A DNA stretch of 35,985 bases, from NCBI GenBank assembly GCA_025450475.1, contig JANWHJ010000020.1, positions 1 to 35,985 of the forward strand, given 5' to 3'. Position numbers and translations under genes: made by a program. The notes beneath the pieces were generated by a model that did not search any database, was not told where the DNA came from, and saw only the letters and a program-made list of their open reading frames with translations. Positions 15,340-24,925 of this stretch are shown in pieces (positions within the stretch are counted from its first letter, which is position 1; each line of letters starts with the position of its first letter). The stretch is from Nitrososphaera sp. Lineage in GTDB: Archaea; Thermoproteota; Nitrososphaeria; Nitrososphaerales; Nitrososphaeraceae.

Positions 15340-15948
15340 TCAGCCGCGCTTTTTCTCCAGACTATCGATTGCAGTCATGAACGCTTTTCTCCTGCTCTCT
15401 TCGGTGACCACTGCTCTGATGTCTTCAATGAGCATTCTTGCCACGTCAAGCTTTTTGCGTAAGCCAGGCACGATGTTGTCGTAGACAGCAAAAGGGTAGA
15501 TCGCGTTATAGATCTCTTCCATCGTTACAAACAGCTTCTCGGCGTCCTTTTCGTTGCCCGAGCGCATCCTGTCGTACACAAGGCGTTTTATCTCGCCGAC
15601 GCAGTCAAGCAGACCTGTGAGGTATGACGGCCCCGTGATGTCCAGATCCTGCATTGAAGGGATGAACGCGTTCTCCATCACCGCCCGGAGAGCATATGCT
15701 TCCACCAGCTCCTGCTCTGCCACAGAAATGTAGCGATAGAGGTCTTCCTTTGCATATTGCCTGAATTCTACGAGCATTGTCTTTGCCTCTCCCATCTTGT
15801 TCTTTGCGTCCTCAATCTGGCCGTGGTGCAGCGAGACTATAGACCTGCTGCACAGCATCACGATGTCGCGCGTGCCCTTGATCAATTTTTCGCGCCGCTC
15901 CTGCACGTCACTTAGTTCCTTGCTAATAGCTTCAAGCGAGCCCTGCAT
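15340..15948 (-). CDS. translin family protein
   Basis: QERREKLIKGTRDIVMLCSRSI... and TGLLDCVGEIKRLVYDRMRSG; start MQGSLEAISK, because upstream ORF sequence is antisense to Hjc. Confidence 0.8.
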   Translation of the reverse strand: MQGSLEAISKELSDVQERREKLIKGTRDIVMLCSRSIVSLHHGQIEDAKNKMGEAKTMLVEFRQYAKEDLYRYISVAEQELVEAYALRAVMENAFIPSMQDLDITGPSYLTGLLDCVGEIKRLVYDRMRSGNEKDAEKLFVTMEEIYNAIYPFAVYDNIVPGLRKKLDVARMLIEDIRAVVTEESRRKAFMTAIDSLEKKRG

Positions 15949-16029
15949 GACGTTACAGCTGGCAGTTTGCAATAAAAGACTTGCTCCCTTGAGAAACTTT
16001 AAAGATACGAAAAGTTCAACGCTAGCTGA

Positions 16030-16560
16030 TTGGGAAACATTCGCCGGAGCAGAGGATACAGCTATGAATACACATTGGTCCAGAGAATGAACAATGGGGT
16101 ATGGCATGCCCGGCGTCTTGGCGGCTCGTCGACGGGCTTGCCCGACATTGTCGCAGTCAACAACAACGATGGCATATTGCTGACGATCGAAGCAAAGTCG
16201 GGGACGAGTGACATACTGTACGTGCCGCAGGATCAGGTAGAGCGCTGCCTGATGGTCAGGAACATGTTTGGCATATACCCGGAGAGGCACATTATACTCG
16301 CATTCAAGTTCATGAGCAAAAAGAGGTTCAGGCGCAAGAACAAGACAGTCTATGAAAGCCGCAAGCTGCTGGAATACTACAAGGTGGCAGATATAGTCTC
16401 AGACTTGAGCGTCCTCCCGATAATAAAATGCACATACGACGGCAGGACTTTTGCCATACACAAAGGCAAGACAGTGGCCCTGAACCTACCGGACTATTCC
16501 ATGCCGTTTCAGAAAATTGTACGGCGGGTTGCCACAGTAGCGGCGGGAGGAACAACATAA
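16030..16560 (+). CDS. hjc: archaeal Holliday junction resolvase
   Basis: SRGYSYEYTLVQRM...RRLGGSSTGLPDIVAV...LLTIEAKS nuclease motifs. Confidence 0.88.
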   Translation: MGNIRRSRGYSYEYTLVQRMNNGVWHARRLGGSSTGLPDIVAVNNNDGILLTIEAKSGTSDILYVPQDQVERCLMVRNMFGIYPERHIILAFKFMSKKRFRRKNKTVYESRKLLEYYKVADIVSDLSVLPIIKCTYDGRTFAIHKGKTVALNLPDYSMPFQKIVRRVATVAAGGTT

Positions 16561-16942: not shown

Positions 16943-17845
16943 ATGCAAACTGCAACACTGTGTAACGTATGCAAATCCGGTCAGACGGTCACAGACCCGG
17001 AATCTGGTGAAGTCATTTGCAGGAATTGCGGTCTTGTGCTCTTTGAGAAAGCGCAGGAAAGCCGTGCGGAATGGCGCGCTTTTACAAGCGAAGAAGCAAA
17101 CGACAGGAGCAGGACAGGAATTCCAAGCTCTCTGGCTCGCCACGACATGGGTCTGTCTACAGTAATCGGTAGAACAGACAAGGACGCCAGCGGGCGGACG
17201 TTGGACGCGGCGATGCGCTCGACGATGGGCAGGCTCAGGGCCTGGGACTTTCGCTCGCAGGCGCATTCTCCTACAGACAGGAACCTGCGGCGGGCTTTCT
17301 CCGAGCTTGATAGGCTCAAGGACAAGCTCGGCGTGTCAGACGCGGTGATTGAAAAAACCGCCTATATCTACAGGAAGGCCCAAGAGCGCGGCCTGGTCAG
17401 GGGAAGGACAATATCTGCCACGATCGGCGCAGCGCTCTATATCGCGTGCAGGGAAACCGGCGCGTCCAGGACGCTAAAGGACATCGCAGAAATCGGTAAC
17501 ATCAAGCGCAAGGATCTCGCGAGGATATATAGGCTCGTTGTGATGGAGCTTGACCTAAAGATCCCGCTCATCGATCCGATGAAGTGCGTTGTCAGGGTAG
17601 CAAATCGGGCCAACTTGAGCGAGCGCACAAAGCGCGTTGCCCTGAAGATAATGAAAGGTGTGACAAGGAGCGGCATCTCTGCCGGCAAGGACCCGATGGG
17701 GCTTGCCGCGTCGGTGCTGTACCTTGCGTGCCTTAACACCGGTGAGAGCCGGACCCAGACAGACATTGCGGAGGCAGCCGGCGTTACTGAAGTGACCGTC
17801 AGAAACAGATACAAGAATCTAAAAAGTCAGCTCGACTTGAATTAA
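16943..17845 (+). CDS. tfb: transcription initiation factor IIB (TFB)
   Basis: CNVCKSGQTVTDPESGEVICRNCGLVL zinc ribbon and two cyclin-like repeats. Confidence 0.96.
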   Translation: MQTATLCNVCKSGQTVTDPESGEVICRNCGLVLFEKAQESRAEWRAFTSEEANDRSRTGIPSSLARHDMGLSTVIGRTDKDASGRTLDAAMRSTMGRLRAWDFRSQAHSPTDRNLRRAFSELDRLKDKLGVSDAVIEKTAYIYRKAQERGLVRGRTISATIGAALYIACRETGASRTLKDIAEIGNIKRKDLARIYRLVVMELDLKIPLIDPMKCVVRVANRANLSERTKRVALKIMKGVTRSGISAGKDPMGLAASVLYLACLNTGESRTQTDIAEAAGVTEVTVRNRYKNLKSQLDLN

Positions 17846-17900
17846 AGACAGTTAGCAGTTAATGTTAACTGTCACAAAGATGACAATTGACGTCTGAATT

Positions 17901-17936
17901 GAAGTTGCTATGACCGGTGCAACTTCTCCCTTTTTG
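17901..17936 (+). terminator. hairpin plus T-tract
   Basis: GAAGTTGC-TATGACCGGT-GCAACTTC perfect 8-bp stem followed by TCCCTTTTTG. Confidence 0.5.
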
Positions 17937-18103
17937 ATTAGAGTTTACGACGGAAAAAAATCGGTTCAAGTTTTAATATCGCGTGGGGCCTGCTCGCTTG
18001 TTTTCCTCGCGAAGAGAGGTGACTAATGACGATAAGCTCAAATGGGATTGTACTAACACGACCAATCATTTTCATAGTGAGCCTCTATTTTCTGGGATAA
18101 AAT

Positions 18104-18174
18104 CAGTAAACATCATGTAAAATAGATGATATTTACGTAAAATTGACGTAAAATGACGTAAAAAACACGTAAAA
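18104..18174. repeat. phased (A)(N)GTAAA(A) direct-repeat array
   Basis: GTAAA cores at 18106, 18117, 18137, 18148, 18158, 18169 (spacings 11, 20, 11, 10, 11); four exact ACGTAAAA copies. Confidence 0.85.
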
Positions 18175-18186
18175 TGGGGGTTTTGC

Positions 18187-18558
18187 ATGCACGAGGTGAG
18201 TTGGCTGCTAGGACGCAATCTCTCCCATAAGACTGTCAACAATCACTTCAAGGTAATCAAGCATTATTTCAGTTACCATGGAATTAGGGCAGATCCTATC
18301 GGATTGCGCCAAAACGTAAATAGACCCCGAGAAATCAAGGAGAAACTCCATCCGCTAACATTGGAAGAAATACACAAGATATTTTTCCATTCCATTGAGA
18401 AGCGCCGAATGCTGTATCTTGTTCTAATTGGAAGTGGCATGCGGATACGTGAATGTGTGGCATTACGAAAACGCGATTTTGATCTCCATTGTCCGAAACG
18501 AATCAAGATTGCCATTCCAGTTCAGAATTGTAAGGTTAATGGCGTCCAACTCTGCTAG
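18187..18558 (+). pseudogene. truncated tyrosine recombinase/integrase
   Basis: SAM-like N-terminal domain and first catalytic Arg (GSGMRIRECVALRKRDFD); catalytic H-x-x-R and Tyr regions absent. Confidence 0.8.
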
Positions 18559-18707
18559 GTGAACCATATATTTTACTCACGCCTTCGTCTGTTCCTTGTC
18601 TACTTGTATTAGATTCACCCTTTTTCTCGACAATAGCTCATCATAATTTTAATAGCTAGTGGAAACACAAATGCCTAAATAACAAATTTCGCCCTATTCT
18701 GCTAGCA

Positions 18708-20132
18708 GTGGCAGAGCGGTTAAGCACAGCCGACGTTGGAGCCATAAAGAGAAACGCCTTACGAATGTCTCTTGCCGCCATCGCCTCTGTTTTCGTCATC
18801 GAGTTTGCAGCCGGCATCTTCACGAACAGCCTTGCCCTTTTCACCGACGGCACCCACGCACTGCTCGACGCGGTGGTCACCGCAATCCTGATAATCGCCA
18901 CTACGCTTGCACTCAAGCCGAGGGACGCCGACCACCCCTACGGGCACGGCAAGATCGAGACCATCGGCGGCTTTATCGGCGCCGCAGCGCTTTTTGTAGT
19001 CGCGATATTTTTCATCTATGAAGCCAGCGTCAGGATAGCTGCAGCAGGATCAGCCCCGCTGGTGAGTCCCGGCGCGATAGGCTTTGCAGCAGTCATTTAC
19101 ACTCTGGCTGTCGACGGCTTTAGGATAGCCGTGCTTCGTCGGGCAATAAGAAAGGTGGCCGGGACCACGACCCTGAAGGCGGACTTTTACCATGCTTTTG
19201 CGGACCTCGCTTCTACCACTGTGGCGTTTGTGGGCCTGTGGCTGGTGACAACCGGTTTTGGCAACGGCGACTCTATGGCAGCCATCGTACTGGGCGTCTT
19301 CCTCGCGTACCTCAGCAGCAAGTTCGCGTACCAGAACGCGATGGAGCTCACGGACGTCATCTCGCCCAAGCTGGTAGCAAGGGTGCGGCAGGCTGCGAAT
19401 GACAGCGAAGGCGTGCTTGAATGCAACGACATCAAGATGCACCGCGTTGGTAGGGAGATTTTTGTCGAGGCGACGATCGCGCTGAGGGCTGACATTAGTT
19501 TTGAAAACGCACATGAAATCAGCGCGCAGGTGGAGGGCAACATAGCCAAGAGCCTGTCAGGCACCGGCCTGGACGTTAGGCCAAGAAACGTCACCGTGCA
19601 CTTTGAGCCGGAAGGCGGCGCCGACCTGCCGCCTGAATTCTTGATTGAAAAGGCGGCAACCAGGGTGAAGGGCGTCAGGGGCGTGCACAACATCCTTGTG
19701 TCAAAAATCGGCGGCACCGATTCAGTGGGAGTGTCGCTTCACATCCAAGTCAACAGGTCGGCAACGCTTGTCGAGGCGCACTCGGTGGCCAACGCGGTTG
19801 AGGACTCGATAAAGCGGCAGCTGAGAGGAGCCGAGAGCATTACTGTTCATCTCGAGCCCCTAATGCCAGAGATAGGTGGCATGGAGCCGCTCATAGACGG
19901 TAGCACACAGAATTCAATAAGGGAGACCATCCTTGGGGCACGCGACGTCAAAAAGGTTGGCAAGGTTGAAACCTACAGGACGGCCGCGAATGTTCTGATA
20001 ATAGATATCAACTGCGCTTTTAGCAGCGAGATGACGATAGAGCAGATCCACGAGCGCGTTTCAGAGATCGAAAAACAGATACGTGCAAGATATCCGGGAT
20101 CGATCGTGACGATACACGCCGAGCCCAGCTAG
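18708..20132 (+). CDS. cation diffusion facilitator transporter with extended C-terminus
   Basis: FTNSLALFTDGTHALLDAVVT, DHPYGHGKIETIGGF; three cytoplasmic repeats ending in VTVHFEP, ITVHLEP, VTIHAEP. Confidence 0.93.
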   Translation: MAERLSTADVGAIKRNALRMSLAAIASVFVIEFAAGIFTNSLALFTDGTHALLDAVVTAILIIATTLALKPRDADHPYGHGKIETIGGFIGAAALFVVAIFFIYEASVRIAAAGSAPLVSPGAIGFAAVIYTLAVDGFRIAVLRRAIRKVAGTTTLKADFYHAFADLASTTVAFVGLWLVTTGFGNGDSMAAIVLGVFLAYLSSKFAYQNAMELTDVISPKLVARVRQAANDSEGVLECNDIKMHRVGREIFVEATIALRADISFENAHEISAQVEGNIAKSLSGTGLDVRPRNVTVHFEPEGGADLPPEFLIEKAATRVKGVRGVHNILVSKIGGTDSVGVSLHIQVNRSATLVEAHSVANAVEDSIKRQLRGAESITVHLEPLMPEIGGMEPLIDGSTQNSIRETILGARDVKKVGKVETYRTAANVLIIDINCAFSSEMTIEQIHERVSEIEKQIRARYPGSIVTIHAEPS

Positions 20133-24053: not shown

Positions 24054-24925
24054 TTTTCCATCCCGTTTATTTTTGCTAAGAACGCGCAGATCGAAGTATA
24101 ATCCTGGTCAGAAAAACCGCTGTTGCTTGCAGCCCGAAAGATCTGTTGCGCAAGCGCGGTCTGGGGCAAAGTGATGCCGGCGACCTGCGCGGTCCCCGTG
24201 GCAAGGTCAAGGTCTTTTAGCATGTTCTTGAGGTGGAATGACGACGTAAAGTCGTTCTTTACCATTTTCGGTCCTTTCTTTTCCGACAGGCCTGTCTTAA
24301 AATAAGTCGAATTGAGCATCTGGATGAATATCGACGGATCTATGCCACAGCCTCTGGCAAGCGTTATACCTTCCGACACGGCGCTTGCGACAAGCGCGAT
24401 GTTCAGGTTGAGCGCCAGCTTTATCACGTTTGCAGAGCCGTCCCTTTCGCCGACGTAAAAAGTCCTGCCCAGCTTTTCGATAACCTGCCTTGCTTTTTCA
24501 AACGCCTGCCTGCTGCCTGCTACCATTGGCACGAGCTCGCCCACCTCGGCTGCAGCCGGCCCTCCCATCACGGGCATGCCGAGCATCTCTATGCCTACGC
24601 TGCGCAATTCCTGCGCGCAGTGCTCGGACTGTGACGGCGAGATCGTACTTGCATCCACCACTACCAGCCTGCGGTTAGCCGATTCAACGATGCCGCCCTT
24701 GCCCAGAAGCACTTCCTTGACGGCTTCAAAGTCGGTGACGATGGTTATGACAAGGTCGCAACTTTCGGCAAGCTCTTTCGGGCTAGAAACAATAGTGGCG
24801 CTTTTTGAAAACCGCTCTGCCTTCGCGCTGGAGCGGTTGTACACCGACACGGTGTGCTCTGTATTGACAAGCCGGGTTGCAATCCCAGATCCCATAAGGC
24901 CGAGGCCTGCCACGCCCACTTTCAT
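24050..24925 (-). CDS. 3-hydroxyisobutyrate/beta-hydroxyacid dehydrogenase family
   Basis: VGVAGLGLMGSGIATRLVN Rossmann motif; VDASTISPSQ; GMPVMGGPAAAEVGEL. Confidence 0.93.
   Translation of the reverse strand: MKVGVAGLGLMGSGIATRLVNTEHTVSVYNRSSAKAERFSKSATIVSSPKELAESCDLVITIVTDFEAVKEVLLGKGGIVESANRRLVVVDASTISPSQSEHCAQELRSVGIEMLGMPVMGGPAAAEVGELVPMVAGSRQAFEKARQVIEKLGRTFYVGERDGSANVIKLALNLNIALVASAVSEGITLARGCGIDPSIFIQMLNSTYFKTGLSEKKGPKMVKNDFTSSFHLKNMLKDLDLATGTAQVAGITLPQTALAQQIFRAASNSGFSDQDYTSICAFLAKINGMEK

Follow-up and report, generated by a model that had tools for sequence, protein, structure and literature searches.

A helically phased GTAAA repeat array with strong predicted curvature lies in the remnant of an element integrated at the TFB gene of a Nitrososphaera genome

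A phased array of GTAAA repeats and an adjoining integrase fragment are carried by a decayed, site-specifically integrated element, which lies at a probably recurrent target, the 3' end of the TFB gene. The analysis covered the whole stretch of 35,985 nucleotides (hereafter the window) and related genomes. The array is statistically real, private to its genome and predicted to be strongly bent; our preferred explanation, held tentatively and with somewhat less than even confidence, is that it once served the element, before its decay, as an accessory or architectural site. The features concerned are the following.

16943..17845, plus strand: TFB (TFIIB-family transcription initiation factor) gene, 300 amino acids (Pfam TFIIB, E 5e-38).
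17835..17844, plus strand: attL core ACTTGAATTA, the last TFB codons (BLAST overlap and aligned empty sites in genomes G017, G001, G002 and G004).
17845..18601, plus strand: insertion missing from sister genomes, 757 bp between the repeats.
17847..17873, no strand assigned: left-end imperfect inverted repeat GACAGTTAGCAGTTAATGTTAACTGTC, common to the insertions of the window and of genome G011.
18104..18174, plus strand: phased GTAAA/ACGTAAAA array, about seven units of 9-11 bp with A4-A6 tracts.
18187..18558, plus strand: integrase fragment of 123 codons, about residues 74-192 of an intact tyrosine recombinase of 315 amino acids.
18602..18611, plus strand: attR core ACTTGTATTA, followed by GATTCAC as in the empty sites (junction comparison).
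18708..20132, plus strand: cation diffusion facilitator gene (Pfam Cation_efflux, E 2e-32; synteny).

The insertion was found by searching the genus with a 2-kb probe and then reading the junctions. In G017 and G001, the 3' end of the TFB gene runs directly into the sequence that begins at 18602 in the window, the two overlapping by 10 bp, and the uninterrupted TFB site is also present in G002 and G004. The left junction of the window reads CTCGACTTGAATTA, then AAGACAG, and the right junction TCTACTTGTATTAGATTCACC, while the empty site is GACTTGAATTAGATTCAC in G017, with close variants in the three other genomes. The attL and attR cores are identical at only 9 of 10 positions and, when one copy of the repeat is counted, the insertion measures 767 bp (17835-18601). 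The 10-bp core stops one base short of the end of the TFB stop codon, so that the final A of this TAA is contributed by the element; the four empty sites have TAG. The left arm of the element reads ACTTGAATTARRGACAGTTARCAG. The GC content of the insert is 40% against 51% for the window. On the right, the cation diffusion facilitator gene is the conserved downstream neighbour of TFB, and its upstream sequence is intact beyond attR. The earlier note had proposed a search for att direct repeats flanking about 17.85-18.7 kb; these were recovered at 17835-17844 and 18602-18611 and are validated by the empty sister sites. With direct repeats at both ends and an uninterrupted target in relatives, the insertion is a site-specifically integrated element of the tyrosine recombinase type. 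A tRNA relic from 18708 onward was considered and rejected, because the cation efflux gene begins there with conserved sequence and no tRNA was called by ARAGORN. Elsewhere in the window, both on the minus strand, are an archaeal SRP RNA (411-727; Rfam RF01857, 118 bits) and a gene for a Translin-family protein (15340-16290; Pfam E 5e-11).

The element is a thaumarchaeal integrated element of a known kind. In the sections of Krupovic et al. 2019 used here (PMC6563490), the att sites of such elements are described as typically short, from 8 bp upward with a median of 17, and 14 of 68 elements lie in the 3' ends of protein-coding genes. The window element shares with those described there the short att repeat, the restored 3' end of the target gene with a stop codon partly supplied by the element, the tyrosine recombinase and the empty site in a sister genome. 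It differs from them in being only 767 bp long, in having an integrase broken at both ends and in its TFB target, which is not among the targets listed in those sections.

The same site is occupied in a second genome. In G011, a separate insertion of about 3.66 kb (L077:1733-5390) occupies this TFB 3' end. A copy of the core bounds it on either side, and it shares the left-end inverted repeat (GACAGTTA..TAACTGTC) with the window element; this inverted repeat was seen in no other of the 70 genomes of the family. The G011 insertion carries secreted-protein-like genes and one for a DDE transposase; an integrase was not found in it, and the array has no match in G011. In a tree of the efflux gene, G011 groups with the empty G017 (support 0.988), which implies either that the TFB site was used more than once or that the element was lost in G017. 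Repeated use is thus probable, unless such a loss took place. The TFB gene is therefore an integration target occupied in two genomes of this genus, and its flanks and core are now defined well enough for live elements to be sought. It is also conceivable, though we regard it as quite improbable, that the TFB stop codon is the recurrent site of a thaumarchaeal element family whose attP combines the left-end inverted repeat with a strongly bent arm of phased A-tracts. If so, the inherent curvature of the DNA would do for recombination what a host bending protein otherwise does.

The earlier note had described the integrase as truncated, which was borne out: both ends and most of the catalytic residues are gone. 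The fragment (ORF 18187-18555) aligns at 58-59% identity with residues 76-188 of an intact recombinase of 315 amino acids, which is encoded in G100, a genome from another family of the order. Relatives of the G100 protein were found in G191 (two copies, one with an internal stop) and in G227 (broken), and a profile built on three relatives widened the match to about residues 65-193; with this profile, no further N- or C-terminal integrase homology was detected in the six frames of the insert. Being limited to about residues 74-192 of 315, the integrase marks a remnant and not a live element. The fragment retains what we take to be the first catalytic Arg (GMRIRE) and presumably lacks HxxR, the second His region and the Tyr, these residues being assigned from what is generally known of the family. 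Both the fragment and its 315-residue relative match the models of the XerA-like archaeal tyrosine recombinases (NCBIfam NF040815; Pfam PF00589); however, the NCBIfam scores are far under the equivalog cut-off, and the fragment differs from these enzymes in having no N-terminal domain, HxxR, His or Tyr. An SSV-type (suicidal) integrase element was considered and rejected, since the cores lie outside the integrase fragment and the intact relative matches PF00589, not PF16795. No relatives of the integrase were found in viral contigs. A search around the G100, G191 and G227 integrases found no TFB gene, so that these probably use other sites. Pieces of this integrase subfamily that retain only the N-terminal or only the C-terminal part, with varied break points, are scattered over other genomes of the order (L126, L128-L133), which indicates that the decay of such elements is common.

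The array ends 12 bp before the ATG at 18187, in agreement with the earlier description of an array stopping just before a truncated integrase ORF. Aligned with the intact protein, this ATG falls near residue 74 and hence is not the native integrase start. The open frame extends back to 18157, and integrase homology starts within about 4-20 bp of the array. The array thus stands where integrase codons should be, implying that a deletion or rearrangement joined the two. The claim that the array lies beside an integrase accordingly has to be amended: the juxtaposition is at the broken end of a gene and is not promoter-proximal.

Six GTAAA cores start at 18106, 18117, 18137, 18148, 18158 and 18169, with gaps of 11, 20, 11, 10 and 11 bp, and four of them belong to exact copies of ACGTAAAA (18135, 18146, 18156 and 18167), a sequence with a single extra copy in the 36-kb window, at 24453. 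The 20-bp gap is filled by a degenerate unit, ATGATATTT (18126-18134), and the array may then be divided into seven consecutive units of 11, 11, 9, 11, 10, 11 and 11 bp. These units follow each other without spacer, the copies being best preserved at the right and degenerate toward the left. Tandem Repeats Finder (TRF) reported, at 18131-18176, a period of 11 with 4.2 copies (score 55) and a period of 21 with 2 copies (score 63). In 2000 dinucleotide shuffles, neither the 757-bp insert nor the 250 bp around the array ever yielded four GTAAA in 71 bp or three phased copies of any 8-mer, and the three-copy pattern had no match in 100 shuffles of the window. The number, spacing and helical phasing of the repeats given in the earlier note are therefore confirmed, and the low-complexity explanation that it had allowed for fails: although the segment is AT-rich (25% GC), shuffles never reproduce the array. 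The array is unique within its own genome, and its region showed DNA similarity only to itself across the 70 family genomes. Among 150 related genomes, only scattered matches of two copies with one mismatch were recovered, which were not commoner than those of a reversed control pattern.

The array carries A4, A4, A6 and A4 tracts in helical phase, and a tandem repeat with such tracts is expected to form intrinsically curved DNA. A dinucleotide wedge model predicted for the array a bend of 117 degrees per 42 bp. This was the top value among the 479,232 positions scored in its own genome (479 kb, about 47% of it), where the runner-up reached 82. A model restricted to AA/TT wedges gave the same ranking (105 against 80). 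Intrinsic bending, which the earlier note had put forward, is thus supported as a prediction. The array resembles phased A-tract curved DNA in its A4-A6 tracts spaced by 10-11 bp and its largest predicted bend in the part of the genome examined, and it has what defines this class, A-tracts of at least 4 at about 10.5 bp together with exceptional predicted curvature; it differs in that its bend is a predicted one.

The ACGTAAAA array is absent upstream of the three intact or near-intact homologous integrases (G100, G191-C5 and G191-C14), which is the first half of what the earlier note had named as refuting its reading, and three phased copies of any 7-mer were found at none of 59 integrase loci of related archaea. 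Its suggestion of recombinase arm sites or an excisionase array, taken as a conserved feature, therefore finds no support at these loci, and specificity of the array for the recombinase is not supported. The three-copy pattern was recovered in 3 stretches among 2.9 million viral contigs and in 19 among about 85,000 prokaryote genomes, none of the latter archaeal by record title. Near-identical arrays occur in unrelated bacteria in ordinary intergenic DNA, mostly with no integrase seen nearby, so that there is no reason to link the motif to recombination. Its independent recurrence, in most cases with no recombinase in sight, fits either a role in curvature or an easy birth by slippage. We found nothing specific in the literature on the motif or on archaeal phased A-tracts at integrases. 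The case shows how a striking repeat array, however sound statistically, can be misread when it adjoins an "integrase" and the empty site and intact relatives are left out of account.

No intact copy of the window element was found, and the original position and role of the array can consequently only be inferred. According to the explanation we tentatively favour, the 767-bp remnant is what is left of a mobile element that integrated site-specifically at the TFB stop codon. In the intact element, the array would have stood in non-coding DNA near attL, about 260-340 bp inward of the core, where it may have provided a bend. A small DNA-binding protein, for instance a winged-helix protein encoded by the element, possibly coated this bend in a cooperative manner. 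Later deletions would have removed the start and the end of the integrase and brought the array against the remaining fragment. The array probably does nothing for recombination now. A plausible alternative, to which we give a lower but substantial weight, is that the array never had a function and is a young minisatellite, born by slippage in an unselected, pseudogenised insert, whose phasing and bend follow incidentally from an A-rich unit of 11 bp. The spacerless tandem arrangement with its best copies at the right, the restriction to one genome and the location in a dead element, almost touching the integrase homology, all agree with slippage, as do similar 11-bp arrays in several unrelated bacteria, including one long homogeneous tandem array (L158). 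Against it, the alternation of 11-, 10- and 11-bp units keeps the helical phase, and the 8-bp core is exact while only the linkers of 2-3 bp differ, which looks more like selection on the core, a weak argument with four good copies.

An array of recombination arm sites or of sites for a recombination directionality factor (RDF), or an operator of the integrase gene of the lost element, would by analogy bind protein cooperatively on one face, with a subunit for each helical turn, in the manner of winged-helix RDFs. We consider this unlikely. The array does lie between the attL core and the integrase remnant, and the intact G100 integrase has a small, different upstream repeat (TTAGCAAAAT-TTAGCAAAAA and an inverted TTTGCTAA), but the absence of the array at the three homologues and the 59 integrase loci argues against it, and the loss of the native integrase start leaves promoter proximity unproven. 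The one-turn spacing is that of head-to-tail winged-helix oligomers, and the cooperative arrays of BldC and RdfS (PMC11963761) share with the window array one DNA turn per unit, direct repeats and a curved DNA path; they differ in that the window element has no cognate protein and its array is not conserved around related integrases. Iterons for the replication of an integrated plasmid or virus, also raised in the earlier note, are very improbable: direct repeats within a mobile-element remnant would suit them, but the repeat units, at 10-11 bp, are short, the only gene recognised in the 757 bp is the integrase fragment and not a replication gene, and the searches yielded no comparable array in archaeal elements. 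We give even less credit to a regulatory array for a neighbouring chromosomal gene. The array does lie between the TFB and cation efflux genes, but it is restricted to an insertion missing from sister genomes, it is about 530 bp upstream of the efflux start and downstream of TFB, and the efflux gene has its own conserved upstream block right of attR.

Several similar repeats were seen elsewhere. Two Paludibacteraceae MAGs (L143-L149, L151, L155, L156, L159 and L160) contain dispersed 11-bp ACGTAAAAARG arrays, about ten loci in one genome, which often start with ATTTACGTAAAA and have strong predicted curvature. Their sequence (ATTTACGTAAAA...ACGTAAAAAACACGTAAAA) and period are almost identical to those of the window array, but they are bacterial, present in many copies per genome and neighboured by ordinary genes in the loci examined, with no sign of common descent. 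Before the intact G100 integrase are two TTAGCAAAAT-like repeats and an inverted copy (L004:2121-2139), and downstream of an integrase in G225 lie TTAC-led units with a spacing of 10-11 bp (L114:3231-3293). In a viral contig, four 10-bp ACGTAAAATC-like repeats begin at the stop codon of a XerC-like integrase (L140:4817-4852), just ahead of a terminator-like hairpin.
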